Source: Phycisphaerae bacterium
GTDB taxonomy: Bacteria; Planctomycetota; Phycisphaerae; Phycisphaerales; UBA1924
DNA length: 41,657 bases
Reading direction: 5' to 3'
NCBI GenBank assembly: GCA_030426395.1
Contig: JAUHYE010000017.1
Location: 1-41,657 of the forward strand
A program made the position numbers and the translations under genes. Positions 3,725 through 38,317 of the stretch are shown piece after piece (position 1 is the stretch's first letter; each line of letters opens with the position of its first letter). Below the pieces are notes generated by a model, which saw nothing but the letters and a program-made list of their open reading frames with translations, did no database searches and had not been told where the DNA came from.

Positions 3725-3728
3725 ATCG

Positions 3729-5393
3729 ATGCTCGAGCAACGACGAACGGCACTGTGCGCTTCGGCGATCCTGTCACTGGCCGGCATCGCTCTGGCCGAC
3801 CAGTTGACCGTCCCGAGCCCGGAGTACCCCACGATTGGGGCGGCGATCGCCGCCGCGGTCGATGGCGACGAGGTCCTGCTGCTCGACGGCGTCTACGAGG
3901 GCACGGGCAACTGGGACGCCACGGTGTTCGCCCAGATCACCATCCGCGGGGCGTCGGGCGACGCGTCGGCGGTCGTCATCCAGGGCCCCGACCTCTCGGG
4001 CTTCCCCGTCGACGCCCACCGGGCGTTCCGCGTTCTCGACGACGTGACCATCGCCGACCTGACCCTTCGGGGCTTGAGCAACTCGGCCGTGCTGGTCGAG
4101 AGCGCCGCGACGGCGACCTTCCGCAACGTCCTGTTCGATGGCAACATCATCCCCGACAACGACTCTTGCGAGACGAGCTTCGGCGCCGCCGCCGTGGTCG
4201 AATCGGCCACCGCCACCTTCGACCAGTGCGTGTTCATCGACAACGTCGCCTACTCGCCCACGTGCTCGGGCACGGGCCGGGCCTTCGGCGGGGCCATCTG
4301 GGCCGAGTCCGCCCGGCTCACGCTGCGAGACTGCGAATTCACGGCCAACCGCGTGAGCGGGTCGGAGCTCGGCCGCGGCGGCGCCATCGCGGCCACCGAG
4401 AGCGACCTGCGCCTCGAGCGGACCACGTTCGCTCGCAACGCCGTGACCGGCGACGCCACCTCGGGCGGGGCCATCAACACCGAGCGGGGCACGCTCGAGG
4501 TCCTGGGCTGCCGCTTCGAGGACAACCGGGCCACGGGGTCCGTCTTCGGCGTGCTGGGCGGGGCCATCAACGCCTCGCGCGGCGGCGTGGCGACCATCAC
4601 AAACACGACCTTCGCCGCCAACACGGCCGACGGACGCTTCGCCGACGCCTCGGAGGTCGGCGGCGGGGCCATCGCCAGCGACGGCGACCTCACCCTGGTC
4701 AACGTGCTCTTCGAGGCCAACGAGGCCGCCGGCCCGTGCGTCGGCTCCTTCGGCTTCGCCCACGGCGGGGCCCTGTACGTCTACGGCGGCGGGGCCCGGG
4801 CCTTCCATGTCACCTCGGTGGGCAACACCTCCGGCTGCGCCGCGGGCGTGCACGTGGCCGGCGGGGCGACCCTCTTCCTGGGCAACAGCATCGTCCGCGA
4901 CGGGGCCCCCGTCGCCGACCCGGGCGGCACCATCGAGGCGACCTACTCGAACATCGAGGGGGGGCTCGCCGGCGAGGGCAACATCGACGCGGCGCCCATC
5001 TACCAGCCGGGCTCCTATCGCCTGGCCAGCGGCTCGCCGGGCGTCGACGCGGGCAGCGTCGACAACCTGATCGCCGACGAGCTGGACATGGACGGCGACG
5101 GCGACACCAGCGAGCCCACGCCGCTGGACCTGGACGGCAACGCCCGCCGCTCGAACGACCCGGCCACGCCCGACACCGGTTCGGGCACGGCCCCGCTGCC
5201 CGACATGGGGGCCTACGAGCTGGTGGTGTGCATCGCCGACTTCGACGGCGACGGCCAGCTCACCCTCTTCGACTTCCTGGCCTTCCAGAACGCCTTCGAC
5301 GCGGGCGAGCCGGCGGCCGACTTCGATGGCGACGGCGAGCTGACGCTGTTCGACTTCCTGGCGTTCCAGAACGCGTTCGACGCGGGGTGTTGA
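3729..5393 (+). CDS. Exported right-handed beta-helix (pectate-lyase-like) protein with dockerin-like C-terminal repeats
   Basis: Protein of 554 residues. The start at 3729 is preceded by GGGGAG at good spacing and followed by a signal peptide (MLEQRRTALCASAILSLAGIA...). Residues ~25-480 carry short repeating strands such as GGAIxA, TxFxxN and the YPTIGAAIAAAVDGDEVLLLDG opening, typical of parallel beta-helix polymorphic outer-membrane/pectate-lyase-like proteins. The last ~55 residues are two copies of DFDGDGxLTLFDFLAFQNAFDAG, an EF-hand/dockerin-like calcium loop plus helix, ending in a final Cys. The tail is probably a surface sorting or anchoring module shared with the proteins at 30686 and 36625. 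Substrate and role are unknown; an adhesin or structural surface protein is as likely as an enzyme, since no catalytic site is evident. Followed by a 21-bp repeat array. Confidence 0.85.
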   Translation: MLEQRRTALCASAILSLAGIALADQLTVPSPEYPTIGAAIAAAVDGDEVLLLDGVYEGTGNWDATVFAQITIRGASGDASAVVIQGPDLSGFPVDAHRAFRVLDDVTIADLTLRGLSNSAVLVESAATATFRNVLFDGNIIPDNDSCETSFGAAAVVESATATFDQCVFIDNVAYSPTCSGTGRAFGGAIWAESARLTLRDCEFTANRVSGSELGRGGAIAATESDLRLERTTFARNAVTGDATSGGAINTERGTLEVLGCRFEDNRATGSVFGVLGGAINASRGGVATITNTTFAANTADGRFADASEVGGGAIASDGDLTLVNVLFEANEAAGPCVGSFGFAHGGALYVYGGGARAFHVTSVGNTSGCAAGVHVAGGATLFLGNSIVRDGAPVADPGGTIEATYSNIEGGLAGEGNIDAAPIYQPGSYRLASGSPGVDAGSVDNLIADELDMDGDGDTSEPTPLDLDGNARRSNDPATPDTGSGTAPLPDMGAYELVVCIADFDGDGQLTLFDFLAFQNAFDAGEPAADFDGDGELTLFDFLAFQNAFDAGC

Positions 5394-5497: not shown

Positions 5498-5833
5498 TCG
5501 AACCGGGCTTGGGCGTGGATAGAACGCCCTGAGAGGCCGGGAGGGCGGTTTTCGTGCTCGCCGGGACCGATTCGAGCAGCACCGAACCCGGTTTTCGGAG
5601 CACCGACGCCGGTTTTGAGCGCTGTGGATCCGTTCCACGGCTCGAAGAACCGGCGGCGGTGAGCGCCGGAACGATTCCGGGGCGCGGCGAAGCCATCCCT
5701 GAGCGCACCGAACCCCCTTCGGGGAGCGCAGGAACGGGTTCTGGGAGCGCAGAAATCATTTTTGGGAGCGCAAAAATGATTTCTGCGCTCCCGATTCGGG
5801 CTTGAGCGAATCTCGAAACAATTTTTGCAAGCC
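5498..5833. repeat. Array of sixteen imperfect 21-bp palindromic repeats
   Basis: The 548 bases between the beta-helix gene and fahA hold no credible gene. From 5498 to 5833 the sequence can be cut into 16 ungapped units of exactly 21 bases. Each has a ~15-base core that is a small inverted repeat and a ~6-base linker close to GGAGCG. Cores differ in sequence but keep pairing: GTGGA/TCCAC, CCGGAA/TTCCGG, CCGAA/TTCGG, and A/T-rich versions such as CAGAAAT/ATTTTTG. The first few units (5498-5581) and the unit at 5687-5707 are weaker. 5394-5497 and 5834-5930 hold nothing recognised apart from the fahA ribosome site. Confidence 0.75.
5743..5792. repeat. Perfect 21-bp inverted repeat with 8-base loop inside the array
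   Basis: The arm at 5743-5763 (begins GGGAGCGCAG, ends CATTTTT) is the exact reverse complement of 5772-5792 (begins AAAAATG, ends GCGCTCCC), with GGGAGCGC between. It is formed by neighbouring repeat units facing each other, and is by far the strongest hairpin in the window. No T-run follows on either strand, so it is not a classic terminator. Confidence 0.85.
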
Positions 5834-5941
5834 CCGCCAGGGCCCGAACACCGGCGACCATATCGCGGTCGCGCCGGCCGTCGCCCGGGGCCCTTGGCTC
5901 TACACTGCCCCCCACACGTCCCAAGCCCAGCCGGAGGATTT

Positions 5942-7345
5942 ATGGCCGCCCCTACCAGCCCCCACTCCCCCCACTACCCCATCGACGAGACCCACGACCC
6001 CAAGCTGGAGAGCTGGGTCGAGAGCGCCAACGACCCGGGGACGGACTTTCCGATCCAGAACCTGCCGCTGTGCATGATCGCCGCGCCCGTGGAGGACGAG
6101 CCCGACGCGATGAGCGTGCACCCGGCGGTGCGGATCGGCGACATGGTGCTCGTGCTCGACATGCTCGCGCACTTCGAGATCGTCGACGGTTCCGCCGACG
6201 AGTGGCAATGGCTCTTCGTCGAAGACCTCGCCGAGCAGGGCCTGACCGGCCGCGTCCGCAAGATCGTGCAGGACCTGCTGAAGAAGGACAACGCGACGCT
6301 CCGCGATCATCCCGATTGCGACCAGATCGTCGTGCCCGTCGACGAGGTGTCGCTGGGCGTGCCGCTCATGGACCTGGGCGACTACACCGACTTCTACGCC
6401 TCCCTCTACCACGCAACGAGCGTCGGCAGCATGTTCCGGCCCGACAACCCGCTGCTACCCAACTACAAGCACATCCCCATCGGCTACCACGGCCGGGCGT
6501 CGAGCATCGTCGCCAGCGGCACGGACGTGCGCCGGCCGGTCGGCCAGCAGGCGCCCACGGAGGACGGCGGCGCGCCCAGCTTCGGGCCCTGCAAGCTGCT
6601 GGACTACGAACTGGAGATGGGCGTCGTGGTTGGTCGCGGCAACGAGCTGGGCGACACGATCCCCATCGGCGAAGCCGAAACGCACATGCTCGGCCTGTGC
6701 CTGGTCAACGACTGGTCGGCCCGCGACCTGCAGAAGTGGGAGTACCAGCCGCTGGGCCCCTTCCTGGCCAAGAGCTTCGCGACGACGGTGAGCCCCTACA
6801 TCGTGACGATGGAGGCCCTCGCGCCCTTCCGGACGCCCGCATTCAAGAGGGATGCCGGCGATCCGTCACCCCTGCCCTACCTGACGAGCGAAGGCAACAC
6901 CTCCGGTGGGGGTTTTGACATCACCCTCGAGGTGTATCTCTCCAGCGAGCAGATGCGCAGCAAGAAGATGGAGCCCGTGCGCATCAGCCGCGGCAACTTC
7001 AAGGACATGTACTGGACCCTCGCCCAGATGCTGACCCACCACAGCAGCAACGGCTGCAACATGCAGCCGGGCGACCTGCTCGCAAGCGGCACCGTCAGCG
7101 GCAAGACGAAGGACAGCCGAGGCTGCCTGCTCGAGCTCACCTGGAACGGCGACGCCTTCGCCAGCCCGCCCAAGCTCGTGCCCGGCACCGACCGCACGCC
7201 CATCGATCTCCCGACAGGGGAACAGCGCAAATTCCTCGCCGACGGCGACGAGGTGATCATCAAGGGCTATTGCGAACGCGAGGGCTTCCGGCGGATCGGC
7301 TTCGGCGAGTGCCGGGGCATCATCACGCCGGCGCGAACCATCTGA
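5942..7345 (+). CDS. fahA: Fumarylacetoacetase
   Basis: Fumarylacetoacetate hydrolase carries out the last step of tyrosine/phenylalanine breakdown, splitting fumarylacetoacetate to fumarate and acetoacetate. The 467-residue protein has the two-domain eukaryote-like FAH layout. Diagnostic segments are GYHGRASSIVASGT (catalytic His), RRPVGQ, LDYELEMGVVVG (metal-binding Glu pair), NDWSARDLQKWEYQPLGPF, AKSFATTVSPYIV, and the C-terminal GDLLASGTVSG. The start at 5942 is preceded by GGAGG; the frame is open further upstream but without a ribosome site. No other homogentisate-pathway gene lies nearby. Its TGA stop is immediately followed by a hairpin-pair repeat. Confidence 0.95.
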   Translation: MAAPTSPHSPHYPIDETHDPKLESWVESANDPGTDFPIQNLPLCMIAAPVEDEPDAMSVHPAVRIGDMVLVLDMLAHFEIVDGSADEWQWLFVEDLAEQGLTGRVRKIVQDLLKKDNATLRDHPDCDQIVVPVDEVSLGVPLMDLGDYTDFYASLYHATSVGSMFRPDNPLLPNYKHIPIGYHGRASSIVASGTDVRRPVGQQAPTEDGGAPSFGPCKLLDYELEMGVVVGRGNELGDTIPIGEAETHMLGLCLVNDWSARDLQKWEYQPLGPFLAKSFATTVSPYIVTMEALAPFRTPAFKRDAGDPSPLPYLTSEGNTSGGGFDITLEVYLSSEQMRSKKMEPVRISRGNFKDMYWTLAQMLTHHSSNGCNMQPGDLLASGTVSGKTKDSRGCLLELTWNGDAFASPPKLVPGTDRTPIDLPTGEQRKFLADGDEVIIKGYCEREGFRRIGFGECRGIITPARTI

Positions 7346-36470: not shown

Positions 36471-36575
36471 GCCCCGCGATCCCCCGGCCAGGACCCGTCC
36501 CCCGGCCGCCGGCCCCGATCACGGACGAGCCGGCCCCGATCACGCACGATCCGGCCCCGATGGCGCCCGCCCGGT
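36471..36575. repeat. Short array of five 21-bp repeats
   Basis: Five ungapped 21-base units (36471, 36492, 36513, 36534, 36555), the third and fourth nearly identical (CCCCGATCACGGACGAGCCGG-like with two or three changes). They lie in the 210-base gap between the serine hydrolase start and the stop of the LVIVD-type gene. The remainder of the gap (36576-36624) is very GC-rich with small inverted repeats. Confidence 0.7.
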
Positions 36576-37892: not shown

Positions 37893-37997
37893 GGGTTTGT
37901 TCCGCGTTGCGGTGGGTTCTCAAGAAGTTGTGCCGGGCTTTCAGGACGTTGCCCCGGGCTCTCAAGACGTTGCCCCGGGCGCGCGGGGTGTTGCGCC
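37893..37997. repeat. Five-unit 21-bp repeat array, reversed orientation
   Basis: Five ungapped 21-base units start at 37893, 37914, 37935, 37956 and 37977; 37935 and 37956 differ at only two or three bases (GGGCTTTCAGGACGTTGCCCC-like). Their reverse complement contains GTCTTGAGAGCCC, close to GTCTTGGAGAGCGCA in the array at 38108-38317, so the two arrays face each other. Units weaken beyond 38000. The bases between the arrays (38000-38107) are extremely GC-rich and hold no gene. Confidence 0.65.
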
Positions 37998-38107
37998 CGG
38001 CGCGCGGGGGAATCCCGCTGGCAAACCAGCGCCCAACCCCCGCAGGAGCCCTCCCGCGGGGCCGCGGCCCGATGCCGGGCGGCCCGCGGCCCGTCCCGCG
38101 TTGTCCA

Positions 38108-38317
38108 GCACCGGCGCTGGAGAACGCACGACCGGTCTTGGAGCACGCAGGACCGGTCTTGAGGAACGCAGCACCGGTCTTGGAGAGCGCAGCACCGGTC
38201 CTGAGAAGCCCAGCGCCGGTGCTGGAGAGCGCAGGACCGGTCTTGAGGACCCCAGCACCGGTGCTGGAAAACACAAGACCGGCGCTGGAGACCGCAGCAC
38301 CGGTCTTGTGCTCCGCG
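38108..38317. repeat. Ten-unit 21-bp palindrome array
   Basis: Ten ungapped units of 21 bases, each with an ACCGGT-type palindromic centre (GACCGGTC, CACCGGTC, GCACCGGTGC, GCGCCGGTGC, GACCGGCG) and a linker close to TGGAGAGCGCA. One unit extends to a perfect 16-bp palindrome, CCAGCACCGGTGCTGG, around 38260. The 654-base gap 37789-38442 otherwise holds only the reversed array and the upstream regions of the two divergent genes. Both strands stay open through the array because 21 is a multiple of 3; this is not evidence for coding. Confidence 0.8.

Follow-up and report, generated by a model that had tools for sequence, protein, structure and literature searches.

A 21-bp array of 16 units in the genome of a Phycisphaerae bacterium, termed array1, is in our tentative reading, which we hold at a little short of an even chance, a member of a genome-wide class of intergenic elements in which an exact 21-bp step and not the sequence is maintained, the units being helically phased (21 bp are two turns of B-DNA) and renewed by tandem duplication. 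The arrays of this class keep their step exactly while each has a private sequence, off-phase units are nearly absent and dyad symmetry is partial. Arrays recur in the same gap in relatives with differing sequence, and across the class they are repeatedly located upstream of the members of one paralogous gene family.

Array1 and its surroundings

The window, which is the whole stretch of 41,657 nucleotides that was analysed, contains the following features. Here and below, G000 is the own genome, G000 to G006 are seven congeners and L numbers denote sampled DNA stretches or loci.

3726 to 5393, + strand: upstream gene, right-handed beta-helix protein with C-terminal dockerin/EF-hand-like repeats (PF13229, E 7e-12; Dockerin_1 0.005, below the cut-off)
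5498 to 5833, no strand: array1, 21-bp array of 16 units (lag-21 identity z 9.5; unit table)
5743 to 5792, no strand: 50-bp inverted repeat near the gene-proximal end of array1 (46/50 positions matching; both strands fold)
5896 to 5911, + strand: GGCTCTACACTGCCCC, -10-region-like element for the downstream gene, kept in G003, G004 and G005
5942 to 7345, + strand: fumarylacetoacetate hydrolase (FAH) family gene, downstream of array1 (PF01557, E 4.8e-36)
36508 to 36561, no strand: short weak 21-bp run of 2.6 units (TRF; dyad p 0.90)
37905 to 38010, no strand: second 21-bp array of the window (TRF; lag 21 z 8.7; dyad not significant, p 0.77)
38106 to 38304, no strand: third 21-bp array, with a CAGCACCGGTGCTG-like core (TRF; lag 21 z 13.7; strong dyad, 0.753 vs 0.515, p 0.003)

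The exact 21-base step claimed in the preliminary description, which had named autocorrelation at lag 21 as the check, is borne out, as the lag-21 identity of 0.511 over 5498 to 5833 lies far above the 0.265 (sd 0.026) of 500 dinucleotide shuffles, none of which reaches it (z 9.5). The next-best lags are 63 and then 42, and the highest identity at any lag from 3 to 69 in 100 shuffles of array1 is 0.366. The in-phase signal is clear over about 5582 to 5833 and weaker in the first four units (5498 to 5581). The letters vary widely between units, as had been described; the GGAGCG linker had been called fixed, which is an overstatement, as it is exact only at 5723, 5744 and 5765, with one additional GGAGCA. 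That the form is kept and not the sequence seems right, and for this the survey of 35 arrays described below is far better support than array1 alone. A coding heptad repeat, 21 bp being seven codons in frame, is rejected on the position of array1 between two genes and a coding fraction of 0% in the codon model, and a CRISPR array on the lack of a constant repeat, with GGAGCG exact in three places only.

With respect to the palindromes, pairing was said to survive in each core, which does not hold. In a 15-base frame with seven possible Watson-Crick pairs per unit, good palindromes (5-6 pairs) are found in 6 of the 16 units, 3-4 pairs in another six, two pairs in one and a single pair in three. 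The covariation of the two halves was equally claimed too strongly, the paired fraction being 0.527 compared to 0.459 when the 3' letters are re-dealt within columns (p 0.054, borderline), while dyad symmetry over 5582 to 5854 exceeds the column-permutation control (p 0.020). A feature absent from the preliminary description is the inverted repeat at 5743 to 5792, which consists of one unit and its inverted copy (5771 to 5791), is recovered as a minus-strand BLAST self-match (E 1.2e-13) and, if single-stranded, gives a 22-bp stem with a 6-nt loop. Equally absent from it are the further 21-bp arrays of the window at 37.9-38.3 kb. The hairpin of this inverted repeat alone could serve as a terminator. 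As RNA, either strand of array1 has a better fold than its shuffles (z -7.1 and -5.9). Four Rfam matches (E 0.046-0.28) are all far below the gathering scores.

Downstream, GGCTCTACACTGCCCC adjoins the arrays of G000, G004 and G005, with a version in G003 that carries one change (TACAGT). It looks like the -10 region of the FAH gene, with a putative promoter role, and its conservation beside the arrays suggests that array1 ends just upstream of the FAH promoter. On the other side, the 3' end of the beta-helix gene contains two 81-bp dockerin-like repeats at 5235 to 5386, similar copies of which occur at other genes of G004 and G005.

A genome-wide class with one step

A sequence-blind detector, which scores identity at a lag and its double for lags 10-70, was applied to 20 stretches of the own genome picked by contig number (229,880 bases; 271,537 bases with the window). 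Thirteen of the 15 arrays detected in this 271.5 kb have a period of 21 or 42, one of 12 and one of 31, and 9 of those with period 21/42 lie outside the window, from which, as an extrapolation from a sample chosen by contig number, an estimate of about 137 arrays in the own assembly is obtained. Within the arrays of L013 and L020 the units alternate at 42 bp. The related genomes surveyed, of Phycisphaeraceae/Phycisphaerales, had been suggested as a place to look for intergenic arrays of period 21, and such arrays were indeed found in several congeners and in a genome of another genus (G016, one array in 80 kb). In G005, 4 of 6 arrays are at 21/42 (340 kb), in G004 10 of 12 detections, of which 9 are distinct (340 kb), in G003 three arrays are accompanied by four lag-63 detections (80 kb), in G006 there is one array in 80 kb and one in a further 100 kb, and in G002 none in 80 kb and one in a further 124 kb. 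No 21/42 array was detected in 260 kb of G001 nor in 20-80 kb each of G019, G012, G021, G008, G023, G034, G031 and G039. Among FAH loci of Planctomycetota (598 kb) arrays occur in one record only, Phycisphaeraceae ACE_PLA18 (L163), where there are two, and 815 kb of FAH loci from other phyla yielded no 21/42 array. Period-10 detections with a score of 1.0 in L148, L167 and L178 may be runs of N.

The gene context and symmetry of 31 arrays were assessed, leaving out the four lag-63 detections in L097 (three of them within a called gene) and one overlapping detection in L064. Using a home-made gene caller, 29 of the 31 are covered by called genes to at most 17%, and their gaps are tandem on the + strand (8), tandem on the - strand (8), divergent (8) and convergent (7, two of them doubtful). 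As arrays occur in all gene orientations, a DNA element fits better than a terminator, and intrinsic terminators at 3' gene ends are rejected as a general explanation, with 8 of the 31 arrays in divergent and 7 in convergent gaps.

In the consensuses of 35 arrays, pooled from several species, the sharing of 4-, 5- and 6-mers stays within the range given by permutation. Pairwise consensus similarity averages 10.5 compared to 10.3 when permuted. What is kept is the phase. In 297 units of the 35 arrays that match their own consensus at no fewer than 14 of 21 positions, a single one of 255 spacings below 64 bp is not a multiple of 21, as opposed to 1,265 mismatches within units, although independent changes are fewer than that since mismatches were counted per unit and copied ones recounted. 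Seven units stand off the main phase, compared to a chance expectation of 13.4 matches from permuted consensuses. In comparison, ordinary noncoding DNA in the alignment of G005 with G004 shows 2,456 mismatches and 391 gap events, a rough comparison as array detection itself uses phase and in-phase arrays are thus favoured. A looser wrap-around alignment, replaced by unit spacing for the indel count, counted 198 bases as inserted or deleted, for the most part where it extended into the flanks, which counts against phase-keeping; by unit spacing, apparent phase shifts are seen at 7 of 285 junctions, in 5 of 35 arrays and mostly at array ends. Units strongly drifted in sequence still stand in phase. 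On the other hand, the likeness of units within an array indicates ongoing duplication, so that mutation alone may have given rise to the fixed step.

Dyads are real, yet not universal among arrays. A significant dyad by column permutation (p<0.05) is present in 12 of 31 arrays (Fisher 8e-10) and absent from 19, and among arrays upstream of the gene family described below it is present in 12 of 39 (Fisher 2.6e-9) with 27 failing, the two sets overlapping in 7 of the 39. Covariation is rejected as the main proof, being borderline in array1, while for the pooled value of 31 arrays (Fisher 4e-5, with six of them at p<0.05) the dyad register had been picked from the very data under test, which inflates the result. 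Long inverted repeats (p<=0.05) occur in 15 of 42 arrays with 14 of the 15 axes towards an end; inverted terminal units thus exist, their side varies, and a gene-side inverted cap as a rule is dismissed.

A partner gene family and arrays in the same gap

The proteins adjoining two of the own arrays belong to one undescribed family of about 220 residues, hereafter the partner family, which has no meaningful match in Pfam or NCBIfam. Its proteins are helical towards the N-terminus and similar to Fn3 domains towards the C-terminus (PDB 3mpc, E 1.4e-8), while AlphaFold2 on a single family sequence gave a poor model (mean pLDDT 39). Single members match PHROGs annotated as major tail protein (E 1e-4) and Hoc-like head decoration (E 3e-4), matches which we read as probably reflecting the Fn3-like fold. 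The own genome contains 69 matches, some of which are fragments, G001 two, and G002, G003, G004, G005 and G006 about 23, 44, 41, 20 and 36, respectively; overall the family is present in 9 of 25 genomes (0 to 69 copies) and, at E<=1e-30, in 15 of 150 genomes of the class. Members among the own matches include L012:3691-4341, L021:5101-5787 and L020:16867-17532. In the array-less congener G001, one of the few matches (L071 15223-15858) holds a stop codon.

Array and partner gene are linked in position. Of 21 members in sampled DNA, 8 have an array 252-344 bp upstream, 7 have one 2.4-4.1 kb upstream and 6 are without array in their stretch, and none has a nearer array downstream. A strong array within 750 bp upstream is found for 9 of 20 members in G004 and for 4 of the 82 other gene starts that follow a gap of 200 bp or more (odds ratio 16, p 3.3e-5). 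The 20 were taken by position from 39 listed, a choice biased towards members close to the query. Gene starts outside the family have such an array in the own genome (8 of 54) and in G003 (6 of 21) as well.

When lags 10-60 are compared in the 1 kb upstream, lag 21/42 is best for 17 of 30 members or fragments, namely in G000 (5/5), G020 (4/4), G016 (3/5), G018 (3/4), G014 (1/4) and G024 (1/4), and for no member of G009, G012 (2) and G027; upstream of some members the best lag is 14 or 20 (L295 and L302 in G024, L292 in G012, L311 in G018). In nine further genomes, eight of which belong to other families of the class, lag 21/42 is best for 11 of 12 members, with a score of at least 0.66 in 10; these 12 loci each have another unit. 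Family copy number follows array density with a Spearman coefficient of 0.93 in 14 genomes and 0.89 in the seven congeners, counts which come from two search methods in related genomes, five of the 14 being double zeros.

The distance from the array end to the family gene has a median of 239 (quartiles 188-313) with no conserved promoter distance evident, and array and gene have no convincing leader motif in common. The partner protein lacks a basic character, with a net charge of -7 to +2 over its first 95 residues. Cognate binding of each array by its own partner is rejected, as greater identity between proteins does not go with greater similarity between their arrays (Spearman 0.08, p 0.12, 406 pairs, those with two of the 29 proteins, which were cut short by frame choice, being meaningless). 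The partner genes are read as the commonest clients of the arrays and not as coding for the binding protein. Arrays with no family gene found nearby include array1 and both arrays of L163; as the window has no match to the family at E<=10, any effect of array1 would fall on FAH or the region at large.

An operon-like order of array, long gene and family member is seen in L064 (12435-17100), L057 (13783-18550), L010 (5900-8811) and L073 (7045-10910), with long genes that code for a KAP-like P-loop protein (by eye), a 1195-aa protein, a 648-aa membrane-like protein and a beta-helix-like protein (by eye).

The FAH gap itself carries a strong lag-21 array in four of the seven congeners (G000, G003, G004 and G005) and none in G001, G002 and G006. 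Between the four consensuses only G004 and G005 are alike (15/21, reached by 4 of 500 permutations) with the other five pairs at chance, despite 85-89% DNA identity of the FAH region between G000, G004 and G005. In G003 the upstream neighbour gene is a different one, yet an array stands on the corresponding side of FAH. In the roughly 147 kb that are collinear between G004 and G005, all three anchored G005 arrays have a 21-bp array of G004 in the matching place, one only within a several-kb gap, while of five anchored G004 arrays three have a counterpart in G005, one is without clear counterpart and one, at 146842-147045 of the joined stretch (L073 6842-7045), faces a 46-bp gap.

At an orthologous partner gene (L012, L053, L061, L100, L257) the flanks are kept and the own array differs, with 12-14 of 21 consensus positions in common compared to 16-19 among the other three and a 99% point of permutations of 13; by these letters, a distant relation of the own array to those at the orthologous locus would be possible. 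G002 has a single palindrome at this locus, where G003-G005 have arrays, and several array-gene pairs are kept vertically at the same place in 4-5 species. The own paralogues L306 and L318 are 81% identical at the DNA level over about 1 kb starting at about the array edge, with arrays that are much less alike than the genes (15 of 21 consensus positions in common).

Known repeat classes and the origin of the step

Bacterial tandem repeats of constant length and variable sequence were reportedly described by Subirana and Messeguer (J Bacteriol 2020). In Bacillus such repeats are of 20-21 and 52 nt, and repeats of 20-23 nt occur in many bacterial groups; several unrelated, mostly noncoding families exist per genome, short species-specific sequences common to the repeats of one species are frequent without being defining, and the authors note the two helical turns and propose nucleoid proteins or small RNAs (PMC8161180). 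The earlier statement that no named repeat class has this pattern was thus half right: constant-length, variable-sequence repeats are in print, whereas palindromes, hairpins and a partner family are not mentioned in the available part of that article (PMC8161180). The arrays described here resemble those satellites in having one repeat length (21 or 42 bp in 13 of 15 arrays), sequences that are not conserved from one array to the next and a noncoding location. They differ from what the accessible text reports in that no k-mer is shared above chance (35 arrays, several species pooled), and inverted terminal units, in-phase drift, dyads and recurrence in the same gap with new sequence, which are seen here, are not mentioned in that portion (PMC8161180).

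A likeness also exists to REP/BIME elements, which are short extragenic palindromes of 20-40 bp, many per genome and some clustered, reported in Planctomycetes as well (PMC3733652). REPs have a sequence in common, tagged by GTAG or CGTC, together with a Y1 transposase (PMC3733652), whereas the arrays here have no common sequence. Y1_Tnp (PF01797) has 0 matches in the own assembly (93% complete), with positive controls in 5 of 14 genomes, and a REP/RAYT system is rejected on this ground and by the lack of a k-mer common to the array consensuses. Plasmid iterons and parC sites are direct repeats at a regular helical step, whose unit sequence is fixed and bound by the protein that the neighbouring gene encodes. 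The arrays are like them in the regular helical step upstream of a gene and unlike them in their free sequence and in a partner protein that is not basic. A literature search, with most subscription papers outside it, retrieved no account of a partner gene family and none of dyadic, phase-locked arrays of 21 bp in Planctomycetes.

In the reading that we favour, units would arise by tandem duplication and subsequently drift in sequence, with occasional inversion of a unit, perhaps through hairpins. Off-phase changes would be eliminated, as the array would serve as a platform in helical phase, which would align numerous weak dyads along a single face of the DNA ahead of promoters and might be read by an abundant, sequence-lenient architectural protein or through DNA bending or supercoiling, and so would tune nearby transcription. 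A more far-reaching version, which is possible and which we consider doubtful, is a spacing-only element with free letters, a kept step and a fresh array sequence at nearly every locus of the class-wide partner family, by a dedicated 21-bp duplication mechanism or by selection on helical phase alone.

Chief among the rivals is a mutational machine, in which an enzyme or a replication process (slippage over hairpins, template switching or a nick-and-copy activity) would duplicate DNA in steps of 21 bp, the arrays being a by-product or selfish trace and the step reflecting the machine and not selection. Rather unlikely in our view, it is nevertheless consistent with a single step length for many arrays of unrelated sequence across several families of the class, with the similarity within arrays, the alternation in L013 and L020 and the inverted terminal units in 15 of 42 arrays, and with the lone palindrome of G002 and the presence or absence of arrays at orthologous gaps. 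Such a machine alone would not protect the phase of strongly drifted units and needs an extra reason for its preference for one gene family, and Y1_Tnp, the one enzyme looked for, is absent from the own assembly. Ordinary neutral tandem slippage without function or special step, by which tandem repeats arise in all genomes, would agree with the dispensability of the arrays, as indicated by their absence from G001 (260 kb) and many relatives; it is already disfavoured and highly improbable given the step of 21/42 in 13 of 15 own arrays with other steps rare, one off-step spacing in 255 and the link with one gene family across the class.

That the arrays are transcribed and their hairpins act in RNA, as a 5' leader or as small RNAs, is improbable. 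The folding of array1 beyond shuffles argues for it, as do the transcribed 52-nt repeats reported for Bacillus coagulans (PMC8161180), yet both strands fold alike, arrays lie in convergent and divergent gaps alike, no Rfam family comes near its gathering score and hairpins need no constant 21-bp step. Dyad mismatches point both ways, with G.T 150 vs A.C 114 on the sense strand of the family gene and the opposite direction, G.T 55 vs A.C 78, on the sense strand of arrays between co-directed genes. We give equally little credence to a mobile cassette of array and family gene that spreads as a unit and leaves solitary arrays such as array1 as remnants. The range of copies from 69 in the own genome to 0 in many relatives, which tracks array density (Spearman 0.93, 14 genomes), and the paralogues L306 and L318 with their arrays 15/21 alike would fit, but the alignment of the two stops at the array and does not include it, no transposase, ends or target duplications were seen, Y1_Tnp being absent, and several array-gene pairs are vertically kept in place across 4-5 species.

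New here are the keeping of phase while letters drift, same-gap arrays of mostly unrelated sequence, dyads beyond chance and a partner gene family. Repeats of constant length and variable sequence became known some years ago with neither a mechanism nor a partner attached to them, and the arrays described here give a first handle on them: with the phase lock, the recurrence in the same gap with new letters and the partner family, it becomes testable what reads and what writes the 21-bp step, and the role of up to 69 copies of the partner gene is a further question raised. If the proposal is true, information in this DNA would be carried by spacing instead of sequence.
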